Source of the DNA: Clostridia bacterium
GTDB taxonomy: Bacteria; Bacillota; Clostridia; Oscillospirales; CAG-382
NCBI GenBank assembly: GCA_017456765.1
Contig: JAFTIR010000001.1
Location: 1-64,000 of the forward strand
Reading direction: 5' to 3'
Length of the DNA stretch: 64,000 bases
Below the pieces are notes generated by a model that saw only the letters and a list, made by a program, of their open reading frames with translations, had not been told where the DNA came from and searched no databases. Shown here one piece after another: positions 13,598 through 22,159 of this stretch (the stretch's first letter is position 1; each line of letters starts with the position of its first letter). The translations under genes were made by a program, and so were the position numbers.

Positions 13598-16500
13598 TTA
13601 GGGAGCTGCTGTAACTGAAATGAGCGAGAAGGGAGCTGCGTTGTTGTAGGGGTCAAATCTGAGAGTTGTCATTGTACCCGTCCAAGCCGCATTTGTAGAC
13701 ATATCGAATTCGAATGTCATAATACCTTCTGCATTAGCTTCAGGAACATTAGTGTTCACTGCCATTGATTCGCTATAAGAACCGTCAGCCGAGAAGAAGA
13801 GCTGCGCTCTGCCTGTTACGCCTGTCTGTTCACACTTGATAACAAATGTAAACTTCTTGTATTCCTTAGTATCAATTAAGCCACCGAACAAATCAGCAAG
13901 ACCAACGATGTACGGGTCAGCCTTTGAAGGCTCTGCGTAAAGGAAGCCATCCTTTTCCTTGAATGTAGACTCTACGCAGTTACGAATTGAGATTGATTCA
14001 GTCTTCATAATTGCATTTACGTCAAACATCTTAACCTTATTGTTCTTTTCATCCTCTGTTATAACTCTGAGTCTGGAGCTTGTGAGAGCAACTCTGTTGA
14101 TGATAGCAGAAAGTTCGCTTCTCTTGATGTTTTCAGTAGGCTTGAAGTTATATGCTGCATCAACACCGGTGATAACACCTGCGTTGTAGAGCTTCTGGAT
14201 AGAAAGGAATGAGGAGCTTGACGAAGGAACGTCAGGAATTGTGAGGAAGAGGTTCTTCTGTTCGTACCAGCTTGAAGGAAGTGCACGAACAAACAGTAAT
14301 GCAACCTGTTCTCTTGTAGCAAGTGCTGTGTAGTCGCTGAACTGACTTACAGTAATAATGGAATTGCTGGTTGCATAGTCAACATAAGGCTTATACCAAG
14401 CACCGCCGCTTGTTGTTGCAATAGTCTTCTCATTGTAAATCGCATTCATTCTTGCCGCAACGGTAATAGCTTCTGCAAGAGTTACTGTTCCGTTGGGATT
14501 AAATGTTGTATCGCCTGTACCGTTCATAAGACCAAGTCTAAAGGACTTTTCAACATCGGAGTAGAACCAGTTGCTTGTGTTAACATCAACGAATCTTCCG
14601 TCATAGTTCTTAGAGAATGCAAACTTGCTTGAACCTGTTGTTGCCTCAGCAGAATCATCTACAGGACGTTCAGGAACATTTGTCTTCTTGTCTGCAGGAG
14701 TCTTATTAACTATGCTGGGATTGCTTGTTACAGAACCGCCGCCAAGTGCAGGGTATGTGTTATGACCGGGATGCTCTGTTGTCTGTCCACCCTTGGAGGT
14801 AGTTACATTGGTGGAGGAAGAATATGAATCTTCCGAGCTTCCCATTTCATCTGCACTGCCTTCGGGTCCCCAGATAGCGTAAAGTGTTACGTCGTCTGTT
14901 ACTGTAAACTTATTGTTATAGAGTTTGTTGTAGTTTTCTGTGCTCTTTGCCCATCCGAGGAAGTCGTAGCCTTCTCTTACAGGATCTGCAGGGAGCGGAA
15001 TTGTGCCTGTCTTGCAAGGATAAGAATAGTCATCAACTTCAGATCCCTTGTAAGGAATGGAACCGCCGTTACCCTTGAACTTAACAACCATGTTCTCATT
15101 TACAACTCTTATGGCATCAAAGTAGAATGTCAAATCGCTGCCGCTATTACTTACGTCAAGTCTTATATCGTTGAGATATTTACCTGTTTCCCACAAGGAG
15201 CTACCCGAAAGGTCAAATGTAACTGTCTGGTATTCTCCGGGATTGTTTTTAGAAACTGCGGGTGTTACATACTTTCTTTCAACACCGTTAATTGCAAACT
15301 GTCCGGCTGTATCGGAATATGCATAGAATATCGTGAAGTTTGATGTCACAGGCATCGAGAGCTTCATCTGGAGCTTTGACATCTCTGCTGTAGGAATCGA
15401 ATAATTGTTTGTCAAAAGATTCTTCTTAGCAGCTATCTGTCCGCCGTTTGTGTGGTGGTATTCATATATACCAACACCTGCCGCCTCATCAACAGTCAAC
15501 TTTGTCTGCTGTTCAGACTTAGATGACTTAAGAAGTGTGTCAAATGTATATTCTGCACTGTTCTTATCAAATGACCATTCATAACCCTTGCCCCACTTAG
15601 CATAGAGAACTGTATCCTGTGTAATGTTAAAGGATTCGTCGGGTGCAAGAGCATCTTCGTCTACAGACCAACCTGTGAGATAGTAGCCGTCTCTTGTTAT
15701 GGATCCTGTTATGAAATCATCGGGTACGAAAGCACCGTATGCATAAACAGGTTCTTCGGGAACACCGTTAACTTCATCCGAGGTGTTCTTATTAAATGTT
15801 ACCTTAACAAGTTCAGCCTGGTTTGTGATAACAACCTCGTGAGTTGCGGAAACACTTGGGTCGTAAACAGATGTTGCCTTTACAACAACCGTACCGTTAC
15901 AGATAGGATAGAGTCTGCCATTGTCTGCCTTGGGGAACTTTGCATATGTTGTTCCTTCAACAACCTCCCAAGTTACATCTGTTACAGGAAGAGCAGAGCC
16001 GTCAATAGCCACTGTTTCTCCCTTAAGCTGGAGGTATCTACCCTTGGAGTTGATCTTGTTATCACCTGTGATTTCAACCTTTGTTTCCTTAAGAGAATCT
16101 GTTTCAGTGAATGTGTAGCTTATCGAATATGTGTCGTCGCCGTTATCAACAACTTCAAGCTCTTCACCGTTAAATGTAGCCGCAGGGGCAATTACCTTAT
16201 AGCCTGCTACAGGTCTATAGGTTATATTCAATGTGTATGAAGTAGAAGCTGCAAATACGCTCACTGCAGGTGACCATTCTGCACTGATGATTGAATATTT
16301 GCTATTTACAGATATATCATCAGAAGCCGCAGGAGTAGCCCATGCTTCGGGAGCATCAACTTCAAATTCTGCAACCGTAGAAATTTCTTCACTGGGAATC
16401 AGCTTGATAAGACCAACGCCCCAGATAGGATAGCCATCATAAGGATCAAGACCAAGTTTTGCAATATCGCCACACCATTCGGCTGCTGTTGTCATATCAT

Positions 16501-19500
16501 ATGTGTACTTCTGGAAGAGCTTTGAGCCAACCAGTACTCTTTCACTATTTACAACAGTTCCCTGATTTACAAACACATCGGGAGCATCTGTCAATGAGAA
16601 TCCGAGTACGGGTTTGAGAGTTGCACTAAAGATATTATCATATTCAATTCCACCGTGTGTGGAGTCGATGAGTGCGCTGTAATAAACTTCAACGAAAGCA
16701 AAATCACTGCCGTCGATATTTATTTCGGGAGTCACAAGAGTTGCATCACCCGTCTTTGAAGCGGGAGTTACAATTGCAAGACCATCTTCAAATGTAAGAG
16801 TTGCACCGCCCATTGCTTCTGTGCCTACCTGGTGGTAAGGATTACTGTAATCAAATTCAATAAGGTCTTCAAATACAGCATAGTATGTCACGTCCGCGTT
16901 AACTGTGATTACAGAGGCTGCTGTGTTAGCTGTTGCGCCTTCTGCTTCGGACCAGCCAATCCATCTCTTGCCGGCAGGTACGTTTTCGGGCATATAACTT
17001 CCGAGTTCAAACTTACGGCCTGCAAGGATTATTACATCATCCTCCTTGACATATTCGCCGTTTTCATCCATGCCGTAAAGGTTAACTGTATAGGCTGTGG
17101 AGTCTTCAAGTGCGCCTGTTGCAGCGAACTTATACTTGATTGTAAGTGTGCCTGTTTCTGCGTCATACTCATAAGAAGTTGCTTCCTTGCCGTTAACCGT
17201 TGCCTTTGCAGGAGCATCGGACACAAAGTAACCGGGAGCACCCTTAACTGTCACACATGCTGTGTATTCTTTTAAGCCATCAAAGTAGCGGCCGCCAATA
17301 AGCTCGCCTTCCCAAGTTACATCGCCATAAACTACATACTTTGAAGTATCCTTGGAAACTGCGGTCTTATCTGATTCTGCTCCGGCAACAGGTGTGTCAA
17401 CACCTGTAACTTCGATTACACCTGCTTCATATGAAACAGCTCTTATATAGTCGATTTCAAAGCCTGTACCTACAAAATCCTTGGTTGCATTTTCGAGGGG
17501 GTCAATACGCAAAACTGTAATATTTCCGCCCGTCCAAGCGCCAATTCCGGACATATCAAATACGAGGTCTGTATATCCATCGGGACCTATTGCACCCGAT
17601 GTATTTGCATATACGGAGCCGACAGTCGCAAGGTCTTTTCCGCTTGCATCCTTAGATGCAAAATACAAACGATGTGAGCTGTTGGAAGTCTTCTCTCCCT
17701 TAATTCTCATTACAACCTTTGTGTAATCGCCTCCATTAAAGAGAGGAGAACTGTCACTGTTCTGCATCCAGAACTGCATATCCATGCCGCCGGAATCAGC
17801 ACGTCCCTTGGCCTTTAACGATAATACGCCGTTGTTGTAATCATAATTTTCATCACTGACGTTTGCAATTCTGTTAATTTTAGCTTCATTCTGATCAAAG
17901 AACTCATAATGGTAACCCTGCACCCATACTGCATAGTATGTTGTGTCTTTTATAACATAATCTCTCGCAATTGTAACAGTATCTTCGGGAGATTTTGCCC
18001 AACCGGCGAAGCTGAAGCCGGGTCTTACGGGAGAATCACCGGGAAGCACGTAATCAAGCTTTACATGATCTTCTTCGGGCATATTTGTTACTTCTGTTGA
18101 ATCTGTATTTGCGTCAAATGTTACGGTATAATATTCAACCTGATTTTCAATTGTAATGGTAGCTTCTGCTGTTACTTCAGGGTTATAAACAGAGGTTGCC
18201 ACTACCTTTACTGTACCGTTATACAATGCCTGAACAACACCTGTTTGTTCATCAATTGTAGCAATTTCTCTTTCGTTGTCTCCATGATCGAGTGCCCATG
18301 TAACTTTCTGAACATCGATTGCAGGACTAAATTGAGCAACAAGCTGAGCCGTTGCATTGGGCTTGCTTATTGTAACATCTGCAACGCTCATTTCAAATTC
18401 TACAAGAGGCAGAGTTGCAGGATATGTCTTTGTAATTGTGAGCTTACCGTCGTCGCCGAGAACTGCGCTGTCAACAGCACCGTCACCCGAATCTACAACA
18501 GTTGCATCTTCAACGACAATAGAATAACCCTTTACAGGCTTAACAACGATTGTTGCTATATATACAGATTCCGGTGCATATGAACCGTCATCGTTGAAAT
18601 CGCTATCGAGGCCGTTTACGCCCTTCCATTTAATGGATTCGATTTCGTAATTTTCGCTCGCTTCAACGCTCACGTCGGGCATCAACCATGTTTCGGGAGC
18701 CTTAACACCTGTGATTACAACTGCATCCTCAATGGGTACATTTTCAATAAGCTTTGCACTTGCTACTGCCCATGCAGGCTTACCCTCATAAGGTGCAAGC
18801 TCAATAGCTGTAATTACATTAGGCTTTCCGTTTACTGTAATATCATATGTATACTTGTATGATACTTTTCTGTTTACAACAATGTCTTCTGCCTTTACAA
18901 GAACTGCTTCATAAGAATCCGAATCTGTGCCGTAAACCTTAAGAGCAGGAACTAAGGTGTTGCTGAATTTGTTATTGTTATCTGCATCTTCAAGGCTACC
19001 GTTGTAGATGACTTCTACAGAGTCGTAGCTGCCGGATGCAACATACATACCGTCAAGTGTAAGTACAGCATTGGATTTGTCTGTCTTGGGAGTTACAACA
19101 GTCCATGCTCCGTCAAAGGAAACCAAGCCGTCGGTTGCCTTAACATTATTTACATTCTGATGATACTTGTTGGAGAAATCGTACTCATCAATAGCTTCAT
19201 AGATTGCGTAGTATTCCTTAGGTTCTGTAATGTTGACATTTTCAACTACTTCGCCGCCTTCTGTTGCACTCCAACCAATCCATCTCATACCGGTGGGAAT
19301 GTTTGCAGGAGTAATGATTGAAAGATCAACATCTCTGCCCGAGAATACCTTCTTTACTTCTGTTTCAGCACCCTCGTCATTCTCTTCATGGAGAGTAACG
19401 TCAACAAGCTCAAGAGTACCCATATCCTCTGTTGCATCGAATGTATACTGTACATAACAAGCGCCATCAATCATAGCAAGCGCTGCTTCTTCGCCGTTAA

Positions 19501-22159
19501 CCGTTATAGTATGAGGAGCACCGGAGATTGCATATCCGTCGGCAGCTTCGATATATACTCTTGCAGTATATTGCTTTGCACTGTCAAAGTACATGCCACC
19601 GAGAAGCTCGGAGCCAACCCATTCAATATCTGTAACTATGAACTTGTCAGAACCTGCTGTAACTGCCTCTGTACCATATGCAACCTCGGCAGCAACGGGC
19701 TTTTCAACAGTAAGTTCAAACTTTTCTACTGTCTGAGGACCAACAATCTTGATGTACTCATAGTACATTGTGCTGCCTACAAAAGCTGCATCGGGGTTAC
19801 CGATACGAACATGGTCGAGGAAGCCATCCCAAAGAGGTCTCTGAGACATATCCACTGCATATTCAAAAACCTTGCTTGTATCGCCATTAGTGGTAACACT
19901 GCCACCAAAGTGGTTTGCAACATAATCTGCACCGCCGTCAACGTTACCCTTTGCAATCCAGTTGCCGTCTGCATCCTTTGTTGCATACCAGAAGTCAAAC
20001 TTCAAAGCTCCGGCATAATTTGTTCTGAAGCCGAGGATAACCTTATTAGTGCTTGAAATATCAAGCTGTGACTGAGGCGCGAATGTCAAACGATGGTCGG
20101 CGGTTGTGCCGTTTGTGCCACCAAGCTTAGGAATAAGGCTGATATAGCCCTCGGCGGGATTTGCTGTAAAGTCGCTTGCGAATCTGGAGTCCGTAGCAAA
20201 GTGGTGACCGTCAGTAGCAATTAAAGTAGTACCACTGGAATTGATTCTGTCGGAAGCGCCGTCAAAGGAGTTGAAGTAACCGCCTTTAGACCACTTTGCG
20301 TAAAGGGTTGTGTTTTCGGTTACGTCAAGTGTGGCACCAACAGTTGCACTACCGTCGGGGTCAAGCATCCAGCCTTCAAAGTAGTAGCCTGTACGGGTAG
20401 GAACTACAGTTGATACAGCATAGTTTGCCTTTGCCATATCGCAATCATCTTCAAAGGGCATACCTGTTACTGTGTCACCGGTATTCTTTTCATAATAAAC
20501 TTCAAAGCCCTCTTGACCTGTGATTGTGATTTCAATATCCTTCTTCTGACTGGGGTCATATGCGGGTGTTGCAGTAACAACAACGCACTCGCCTTCGGGA
20601 GTATTCCACATTGCGGAAAGAACATTTCCTTCGAGAGTTGCATACTTTGCACCGCCTGTAATTGACCAGGTGATTGTATCGGGAAGAATTACATCGCCCT
20701 CAATTTCAGGAACAATATTCGCTGAAAGCACGAGTTTACCGTTGTTTTCGGTAATAGAAGTCGCGCCGTTATATTCAATATCGATAACATGAGGAGCTTC
20801 GATTGCAGCAAACGCCTTTGTGATTACCGCGGAAGTTCTTTCAATTACGCAATCAGCCTCTTCATCGCCAACAGTCACAGCCGCATCTTCTGCAAACACA
20901 TAGCCTTTCTCATTCATTTTTACCTTAATTGTTGCGGTATACTCTGTCGAGCCCATAAAGTAATCATCATCAGGAGTCCATGTGATACTTTCAATGGAAT
21001 ATGCCGCATCTGCAGGAACGTCTGCATTAACATCGGGTACTGTGCTGATAGCAGGAGAATCGAGGTTTGTTATTTCGATTTCGGAAACAACTACATTCTC
21101 AACAAACTTAATTTCAGTAATTGTAAAAGCTGCAATGCCGTCGTAGGGTTCAACTCTTATTGCAGAGCAAGTACCTGCCCACGCATCATTTGCAGAAAGG
21201 TCATATCTGTATGTTACAAGAGTTTCTGTTTCACTCTTCTTAACGCCTGTCGCTACCTTTGCAGCATCAAAATCTGCATCATCGGAAAGCTTGAAGTACA
21301 CTTCGCCTCCGTTTGAAGTAGTGATAGCATCTGTCTTTACATATGTAACATCAACAAAAGGATAGTCCTGCGTATTGAGTGCAAGAGCGTCAAATACAAC
21401 ACCGGGGTTGTTGTCGGCAGGAGTTACCTTAAGGCCGGGAACTGTAGAATCAAACACAGCCTCGGAAGAACCTGCATCAAGTTCTTCTGCTTTTGCCGCG
21501 GAGTTAACAACAATGCCTGTCTTTTGGTCATACTTTGCAACAAGCGAAAATACCTGTCCCTCTGTTCCGGAAACAGATGTAACAACTGTATCTGTTGCTT
21601 CATTTTCCCAACCAAGTGCAGTATATCCAACAGGAGATGTGAGCTTAAACTCGTTGGTTGTAAGGTCAAGAGTTTCGCCTACAGCCACGAAAATTCTGCC
21701 GGGACCTGTATAGTAATCTGCAAGGTCTGAATCTATAGAGAAGGTTACTTCATAAGCAGCGCCGTCGGGAACAACGTTAGGTGTAAGAACAACATCTCCC
21801 GTAACAGTATAACTGCTTCTCACAGGAATAACGTTATAGCCGTCAGTCCAACCATTGATTTTATAGCCATCCTTGGTACTTTCATATCTTGTCGCAGGGT
21901 TGTTACGAATTGTAACGCTCTGGTTCAAAGTACCTGACATATCCGAATAGTGTTCCGAATATGTAGCCTTGAGTCTGGAATTTCTTCCGGCTCTGAAGCT
22001 AATCGTATATGTGTCTTCTGCGGAAAGCTCTGCTTCGCCGGAAACCGATTCATAAGCGGAATCTTCCGTGGTTACTGCTGCGGGTGCTGCAAATACAGAC
22101 ATCGGAACAGTAGACACGAGCATTGCCAAGCATAAAATAATGCTTAAAGCTTTTTTCAT
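13598..22159 (-). CDS. Giant modular SLH-anchored surface protein
   Basis: 2853 residues, secreted: signal peptide 1-24 (MKKALSIILC..., cut near VFA-AP). Two InlB/Flg_new-like beta modules (about 50-210) precede a repeating series: CBM-like beta-sandwich (215-353, 628-807, 992-1140, 1418-1578, 1768-1922, 2192-2354; hallmark D(M/L)S...W.G...R.DP), Ig-like (359-452, 813-910, 1145-1252, 1580-1683, 1928-2022; hallmark YTA.I.VK...GY), BIG2-like (455-549, 1254-1340, 2026-2115) and InlB-like (550-625, 915-990, 1344-1415, 1688-1765, 2116-2191, 2356-2432; hallmark GY.F.GW....YA.W). BIG2 occurs in every second unit, giving a higher-order period near 777 residues. A Ser/Thr-rich linker (2433-2510), three SLH repeats (2520-2700) that would bind cell-wall polymer, and one more CBM-like module (2710-2853) end it. 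Likely an adhesin or glycan-binding fibre; ligand unknown. AAGGAG precedes the ATG. Confidence 0.88.
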   Translation of the reverse strand: MKKALSIILCLAMLVSTVPMSVFAAPAAVTTEDSAYESVSGEAELSAEDTYTISFRAGRNSRLKATYSEHYSDMSGTLNQSVTIRNNPATRYESTKDGYKINGWTDGYNVIPVRSSYTVTGDVVLTPNVVPDGAAYEVTFSIDSDLADYYTGPGRIFVAVGETLDLTTNEFKLTSPVGYTALGWENEATDTVVTSVSGTEGQVFSLVAKYDQKTGIVVNSAAKAEELDAGSSEAVFDSTVPGLKVTPADNNPGVVFDALALNTQDYPFVDVTYVKTDAITTSNGGEVYFKLSDDADFDAAKVATGVKKSETETLVTYRYDLSANDAWAGTCSAIRVEPYDGIAAFTITEIKFVENVVVSEIEITNLDSPAISTVPDVNADVPADAAYSIESITWTPDDDYFMGSTEYTATIKVKMNEKGYVFAEDAAVTVGDEEADCVIERTSAVITKAFAAIEAPHVIDIEYNGATSITENNGKLVLSANIVPEIEGDVILPDTITWSITGGAKYATLEGNVLSAMWNTPEGECVVVTATPAYDPSQKKDIEITITGQEGFEVYYEKNTGDTVTGMPFEDDCDMAKANYAVSTVVPTRTGYYFEGWMLDPDGSATVGATLDVTENTTLYAKWSKGGYFNSFDGASDRINSSGTTLIATDGHHFATDSRFASDFTANPAEGYISLIPKLGGTNGTTADHRLTFAPQSQLDISSTNKVILGFRTNYAGALKFDFWYATKDADGNWIAKGNVDGGADYVANHFGGSVTTNGDTSKVFEYAVDMSQRPLWDGFLDHVRIGNPDAAFVGSTMYYEYIKIVGPQTVEKFELTVEKPVAAEVAYGTEAVTAGSDKFIVTDIEWVGSELLGGMYFDSAKQYTARVYIEAADGYAISGAPHTITVNGEEAALAMIDGACYVQYTFDATEDMGTLELVDVTLHEENDEGAETEVKKVFSGRDVDLSIITPANIPTGMRWIGWSATEGGEVVENVNITEPKEYYAIYEAIDEYDFSNKYHQNVNNVKATDGLVSFDGAWTVVTPKTDKSNAVLTLDGMYVASGSYDSVEVIYNGSLEDADNNNKFSNTLVPALKVYGTDSDSYEAVLVKAEDIVVNRKVSYKYTYDITVNGKPNVITAIELAPYEGKPAWAVASAKLIENVPIEDAVVITGVKAPETWLMPDVSVEASENYEIESIKWKGVNGLDSDFNDDGSYAPESVYIATIVVKPVKGYSIVVEDATVVDSGDGAVDSAVLGDDGKLTITKTYPATLPLVEFEMSVADVTISKPNATAQLVAQFSPAIDVQKVTWALDHGDNEREIATIDEQTGVVQALYNGTVKVVATSVYNPEVTAEATITIENQVEYYTVTFDANTDSTEVTNMPEEDHVKLDYVLPGDSPVRPGFSFAGWAKSPEDTVTIARDYVIKDTTYYAVWVQGYHYEFFDQNEAKINRIANVSDENYDYNNGVLSLKAKGRADSGGMDMQFWMQNSDSSPLFNGGDYTKVVMRIKGEKTSNSSHRLYFASKDASGKDLATVGSVYANTSGAIGPDGYTDLVFDMSGIGAWTGGNITVLRIDPLENATKDFVGTGFEIDYIRAVSYEAGVIEVTGVDTPVAGAESDKTAVSKDTSKYVVYGDVTWEGELIGGRYFDGLKEYTACVTVKGAPGYFVSDAPAKATVNGKEATSYEYDAETGTLTIKYKFAATGALEDSTAYTVNLYGMDENGEYVKEDDVIILAGRKFELGSYMPENVPAGKRWIGWSEAEGATANTAASVITVNADVTYYAVFEDLIEFDYSNPYHQVGTEAMGGATLTFEDGLAIVTPASKTGDATLVTPEINIDGSDFAFVEVYYSALIDSTHGGIEYDNIFSATLKPVLGFSLTDAPDVFVNQGTVVNSERVLVGSKLFQKYTYDMTTAAEWCGDIAKLGLDPYDGYPIWGVGLIKLIPSEEISTVAEFEVDAPEAWATPAASDDISVNSKYSIISAEWSPAVSVFAASTSYTLNITYRPVAGYKVIAPAATFNGEELEVVDNGDDTYSISYTFTETDSLKETKVEITGDNKINSKGRYLQLKGETVAIDGSALPVTDVTWEVVEGTTYAKFPKADNGRLYPICNGTVVVKATSVYDPSVSATHEVVITNQAELVKVTFNKNTSDEVNGVPEEPVYAYGAFVPDDFITGSITRDGYYLTGWSVDEDALAPDESFNITQDTVLYAKWGKGYEWSFDKNSAEYTFDTLLKSSKSEQQTKLTVDEAAGVGIYEYHHTNGGQIAAKKNLLTNNYSIPTAEMSKLQMKLSMPVTSNFTIFYAYSDTAGQFAINGVERKYVTPAVSKNNPGEYQTVTFDLSGSSLWETGKYLNDIRLDVSNSGSDLTFYFDAIRVVNENMVVKFKGNGGSIPYKGSEVDDYSYPCKTGTIPLPADPVREGYDFLGWAKSTENYNKLYNNKFTVTDDVTLYAIWGPEGSADEMGSSEDSYSSSTNVTTSKGGQTTEHPGHNTYPALGGGSVTSNPSIVNKTPADKKTNVPERPVDDSAEATTGSSKFAFSKNYDGRFVDVNTSNWFYSDVEKSFRLGLMNGTGDTTFNPNGTVTLAEAITVAARMNAIYNEKTIATTSGGAWYKPYVDYATSNSIITVSQFSDYTALATREQVALLFVRALPSSWYEQKNLFLTIPDVPSSSSSFLSIQKLYNAGVITGVDAAYNFKPTENIKRSELSAIINRVALTSSRLRVITEDEKNNKVKMFDVNAIMKTESISIRNCVESTFKEKDGFLYAEPSKADPYIVGLADLFGGLIDTKEYKKFTFVIKCEQTGVTGRAQLFFSADGSYSESMAVNTNVPEANAEGIMTFEFDMSTNAAWTGTMTTLRFDPYNNAAPFSLISVTAAP

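Follow-up and report, generated by a model that had tools for sequence, protein, structure and literature searches.

A clostridial surface protein with alternating domain units: probable old block duplication followed by unit loss

The window analyzed here, a stretch of 64,000 nucleotides from a species of ruminant-gut Clostridia, holds a single intact open reading frame (positions 13598 to 22159; like all window features located below, on the reverse strand) for a predicted SLH-anchored surface protein of 2,853 amino acids. Its units come with and without a BIG2 domain in strict alternation, which raises the question of whether so tidy a pattern is the direct footprint of a duplication. Module HMMs, built from the window protein and then refined on its relatives, recovered exactly the order that a first-pass annotation had read from the letters: CBM-Ig-BIG2-InlB and CBM-Ig-InlB, this pair twice, and then CBM-Ig-BIG2-InlB and CBM-InlB. 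Unit 1 (CBM1-Ig1-BIG1-InlB1) covers residues 213 to 627 (20279 to 21523), and unit 2 (CBM2-Ig2-InlB2), which trees and module comparisons suggest is probably a hybrid of two sister-species units, covers residues 628 to 989 (19193 to 20278). Unit 3 (CBM3-Ig3-BIG3-InlB3; residues 990 to 1415, 17915 to 19192) and unit 4 (CBM4-Ig4-InlB4; residues 1416 to 1765, 16865 to 17914) were also modeled structurally, and units 5 (CBM5-Ig5-BIG5-InlB5; residues 1766 to 2191, 15587 to 16864) and 6 (CBM6-InlB6; residues 2192 to 2432, 14864 to 15586) complete the series. The annotation had left out two N-terminal InlB-like domains (residues 48 to 212; 21524 to 22018), the SLH domains (residues about 2511 to 2705; 14045 to 14629), and a seventh CBM-like domain that follows them (13601 to 14044; module HMM E value, 5e-56). 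The first N-terminal InlB-like domain matched its module HMM (E value, 7e-14), and the second was placed by eye from its position and by the clade that it forms with its orthologues in the module tree. A putative signal peptide (residues 1 to 24; 22088 to 22159) was read from the sequence, and the orthologues begin alike.

Public profiles agreed with this layout. Pfam returned Flg_new (2.3e-32), SLH (1.5e-16), and Big_2 (1.4e-4) on the window protein. The InlB repeat PF09479 scored 111.3 bits against a curated cut-off of 27, and the Listeria-Bacteroides repeat TIGR02543 scored 66.6 bits against 20.95; Pfam and NCBIfam recognized four or five InlB repeats above the curated cut-offs. The BIG2 profile PF02368 fell just below its cut-off of 22.8 on the window protein (22.2 bits) and rose above it on an orthologue (25.5 bits). 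SLH (PF00395) reached 60.5 bits against a cut-off of 20.8, with two stretches above the cut-off on contig C39. SLH anchoring depends on the pyruvyl transferase CsaB, and a CsaB gene in the genome served as the criterion for membership. CsaB (TIGR03609) scored 275.5 bits against a cut-off of 213.1 in the window's genome and was above the cut-off in all six genomes, those of the window and five relatives. Together, the SLH domains and CsaB support a predicted anchoring of the protein in the wall. The same 1.8-Mb genome (G000) has 43 SLH domain matches, all above the curated cut-off and spread over many proteins. Its contig C42 carries two tandem pairs of SLH proteins of 830 to 879 amino acids (L049:5772-11221 and L048:179-5351) which in their C-terminal parts are similar to the SLH-CBM7 end of the window protein (31 to 34% identity).

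One full double unit (residues 914 to 1684) was modeled with a mean pLDDT of 87.3 and a pTM of 0.47, so the domains are confident and their mutual arrangement is not. Most Foldseek matches to this 771-residue model were generic multi-Ig ones; realignment resolved single domains, with the Ig and InlB domains hardly tested. The CBM4 model aligned with CBM28 1uww (Z 11.7, rmsd 3.2, 148 aligned), the laminarin-binding CBM X584 (Z 11.2), and CBM27 (Z 10.8), the CBM3 model aligned with CBM29 1oh3 (Z 10.4, rmsd 2.8, 121 aligned), and the BIG3 model aligned with the Big_2 domain of 7r3t (Z 11.9, rmsd 1.8, 80 aligned, 29% identity). By these models, the CBM-like modules are predicted to have the beta-sandwich CBM fold (CBM27/28/29-like); no named CBM family profile in Pfam or NCBIfam matched the window protein at E values up to 1. 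A shared CBM fold does not by itself imply glycan binding. With the fold taken together with habitat (the relatives come from gut samples, among them those of water deer and reindeer), the protein is most likely an SLH-anchored, putatively fiber- or glycan-binding surface protein. Its CBM-like modules, with Ig-like, BIG2, and InlB modules as spacers between them, would form a chain that projects from the wall and most likely attaches the cell to plant fiber or host glycans. Should the CBM-like modules bind glycans, the protein may determine which kinds of fiber or mucus serve as attachment sites for these gut bacteria.

SLH display on the wall is shared with SlhA of Paenibacillus alvei, an SLH-anchored surface protein (PMC3776848), and with Cel5I of Ruminiclostridium cellulolyticum, a GH5-CBM17-CBM28-SLH protein (PMC4976890) that also has a CBM28, the fold matched by CBM4. 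Unlike these, the window protein has no catalytic domain detected by Pfam or NCBIfam, and it carries six CBM-like modules in alternation plus the seventh after the SLH domains. InlB repeats are shared with the Listeria-Bacteroides InlB B-repeat proteins (PF09479, TIGR02543; InlB structure, PMC8900821), but here they sit between CBM-like and Ig-like modules, and no leucine-rich internalin domain was found in the protein. Our literature searches found no paper on this protein or on such an alternating architecture.

The first residues of CBM1, CBM3, and CBM5 are 214, 990, and 1766, which gives a period of 776 amino acids, or 2,328 nucleotides, close to the two-unit period of about 777 residues (2.3 kb) noted earlier. 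Self-BLAST of the whole protein produced no off-diagonal pairs, and modules were therefore compared by Smith-Waterman scores against shuffles. The first-pass annotation had held that copies one full period apart are more alike than neighbors, a claim that would fail if units one step apart were as similar as those two steps apart. Units two steps apart were about twice as alike (mean normalized similarity of 0.180 at lag 2 and 0.087 at lag 1), and the Ig2-Ig4 pair gave a z of 24.6 versus 4.6 to 5.8 for adjacent Ig pairs in units 1 to 4. Of the ten possible 3+3 splits, the odd/even one scored best, and the 72 of 720 permutations that reached its value were all that same split; with six units and only ten splits the test has a floor of p = 0.1, which makes it weak by itself. 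The trees described below, rather than this permutation test, carry the weight for two alternating classes. The array can also be parsed as three repeats of InlB(b)-CBMa-Ig-BIG-InlB(a)-CBMb-Ig, the third lacking its last Ig.

A contig search with the window protein alone retrieved no relatives, and a search with an alignment retrieved five: G001, G002, and G003 of the same genus and G021 and G010 of genus g8. Among the 63 family genomes searched, extended matches were limited to these two genera. The window's genome is 89% complete; all are draft assemblies, and at least the relatives are MAGs. The orthologues measure 3,747 (G002), 3,736 (G003), 2,652 (G001), 2,150 (G021), and 1,440 (G010) amino acids. 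Those of the same genus share their neighborhood, namely rpoA and, on contigs long enough to include it, proS; in G001 the end of rpoA lies on the same contig. The window protein is 51 to 53% identical to its G002 and G003 orthologues over long aligned stretches, compared with 95 to 96% for ThrS and 100% for RpoA, and by this measure the family is fast evolving. In ThrS and Pgm trees, G001 branches first and the other three group together (97/99 and 100/100), giving a species tree of (G001,(window,(G002,G003))); ProS alone (283 amino acids, 96.5 to 96.8% identical to all) did not place G001. Extra CBM-like domains before the SLH domains were found by module HMMs in G001 and the g8 relatives (L041, residues 2166 to 2289; L044, 942 to 1080; L043, 1644 to 1789) and not in the window, G002, or G003.

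Both g8 orthologues carry exactly one InlB(b)-CBMa-Ig-BIG-InlB(a)-CBMb-Ig period ahead of the terminal InlB, and the number of double units rises to 2.5 in G001, 3 in the window, and 3.5 in G002 and G003. In these two sister species, unit 2 (CBM2-Ig2-BIG2-Inl2) directly precedes a unit of CBM2x-Ig2x-Inl2x, and BIG2 occurs in the adjacent units 1 and 2. The trees support the double-unit duplication proposed earlier: CBM3 groups with CBM5 (100/95), Ig3 with Ig5 (98/94), and the Ig domains of units 2, 2x, and 4 stand apart from all others (98/97), as do the b-type InlB domains of the BIG2-less units 2, 2x, and 4 (99/95), a clade that does not include Inl2 of G002 and G003. What found no support was the reading of strict alternation as simply the footprint of that duplication, given the two successive BIG2 units in the sister species and the hybrid-like unit 2 of the window. 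The duplication is old, judging from its genus-wide occurrence and the single period in the g8 relatives. A block of [CBM-Ig-InlB + CBM-Ig-BIG2-InlB] would have been duplicated in an ancestor of the genus, enlarging the chain, and later changes in unit number would have come in whole-unit steps.

Domain repeats are known to expand by several domains at a time, with two-domain units the commonest and blocks of seven in nebulin (Bjorklund et al. 2006, PMC1553488). Multidomain duplication and a similarity peak at a lag above one are common to those repeats and to the window protein; the differences are that its units hold three or four different families, that its copies are old, and that unit loss appears to have altered the pattern. 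Adjacent units are the least alike in the window protein, and aggregation avoidance has been discussed as a possible contributor to low neighbor similarity (Bjorklund et al. 2006, PMC1553488); selection might keep dissimilar classes interleaved, whatever the duplication history, since similar neighbors would misfold together. We regard this as quite improbable, because G002 and G003 get by with one b-type CBM unit directly after another and with BIG2 in both of the neighboring units 1 and 2, and the classes track position across species, as duplication alone would produce.

Of the length variation by recombination that the first-pass annotation had offered, the change in unit number between species is borne out, but the present-day substrate for recombination is absent. 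A DNA repeat search of the gene yielded just two matches, of 55 and 42 nucleotides at about 75%, and Tandem Repeats Finder reported no tandem array in it. Paired modules are 41 to 58% identical in nucleotides, 88 of their 171 fourfold third positions agree versus 72 expected from codon use, with third positions near saturation, and the longest exact repeat, 14 nucleotides, matches the length found in synonymous shuffles (mean, 14.7). Homologous recombination requires longer identical stretches, and the copies, having diverged this far, would thus offer almost no substrate for recombination among themselves now.

At the place of the two sister units, the window protein has CBM2-Ig2-Inl. Its CBM2 groups with the sister CBM2 (100/99), and placement with CBM2x was rejected (p 0.029). 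Its InlB2 groups with Inl2x (91/84), with the alternative of sister Inl2 borderline (p 0.064). The identity of this InlB2 is 55% to sister 2x and 33 to 38% to sister unit 2. Ig2 could be assigned to neither parent (AU p 0.40 and 0.24). A column-by-column comparison and the model place the most likely junction at residues 906 to 915 (19415 to 19444), in the last Ig2 strand and the linker to InlB2, and it may sit anywhere within Ig2. In the model of unit 2 (mean pLDDT, 79.5), Ig and InlB are separate, intact domains. No orthologue of the removed block (BIG2-InlB-CBM-Ig) was found elsewhere in the window's genome.

The alternation could instead come purely from serial double-unit duplication, with the window form ancestral and the extra BIG2 unit of the sister species a later insertion. 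The period counts of G001 and the g8 relatives are compatible with that course, and the window Ig2 is about equally near both candidates. CBM2x-Ig2x-InlB2x, however, is contiguous in G001 and in G002 and G003, which flank the window in the species tree, so the window form must be the derived one, barring two separate origins of the block; the exclusion of the window CBM2 from the 2x clade also argues against serial duplication, which we consider unlikely. Unit loss is the reading that we prefer: in the window lineage, an in-frame deletion with its ends at, or close to, matching Ig/InlB boundaries would have removed BIG2-InlB-CBM-Ig, joining CBM2-Ig2 to InlB-2x in a hybrid unit 2 and restoring strict alternation. 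The alternation of the window genome, as the trees suggest, most likely arose only after the loss of one block. For the whole account (a wall-anchored CBM chain, an old block duplication, and a later in-frame unit loss that made the hybrid unit 2), we estimate a probability of about two in three. That the family displays, across living species, stepwise gain and loss of entire units at homologous linkers, in the course of which strict alternation disappeared and came back, is more tentative, at somewhat less than even odds. Unit 2 itself may have been gained after G001 branched off or else lost in G001.

Precedents exist for the multidomain expansion of repeats and for a CBM28 in an SLH protein; what this case corrects is the reading of a single genome, whose pattern is partly secondary. 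The gene offers a small, readable case of a bacterial surface protein changing length by whole domain blocks, and of how an orderly layout in a single genome can give a false idea of its past.

The window CBM2 is only 28 to 30% identical to its supposed orthologues, compared with the 51 to 53% of the long aligned stretches, so replacement or conversion is possible. Unit 2 might then owe its form to exchange with another gene or to conversion by unit 4 rather than to unit loss. Similar BIG2-InlB stretches do occur in other genes of the genus, and Ig2 (19421 to 19735) and Ig4 (17108 to 17431) are the most similar Ig pair of the protein (43% in amino acids, 58% in nucleotides), their agreement at 17 of 26 fourfold sites versus 10.8 expected lying above that of most other pairs and perhaps reflecting a later exchange. 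Such an origin is nevertheless highly improbable, as CBM2 and InlB2 group with different, adjacent sister units, for which one deletion accounts directly. Within unit 2 of G002 and G003 (L040:4672-15915 and L039:4789-15999), BIG2 and InlB lie on long branches and are similar (up to 42%) to modules from other genes of the genus, perhaps a sign of exchange between genes.
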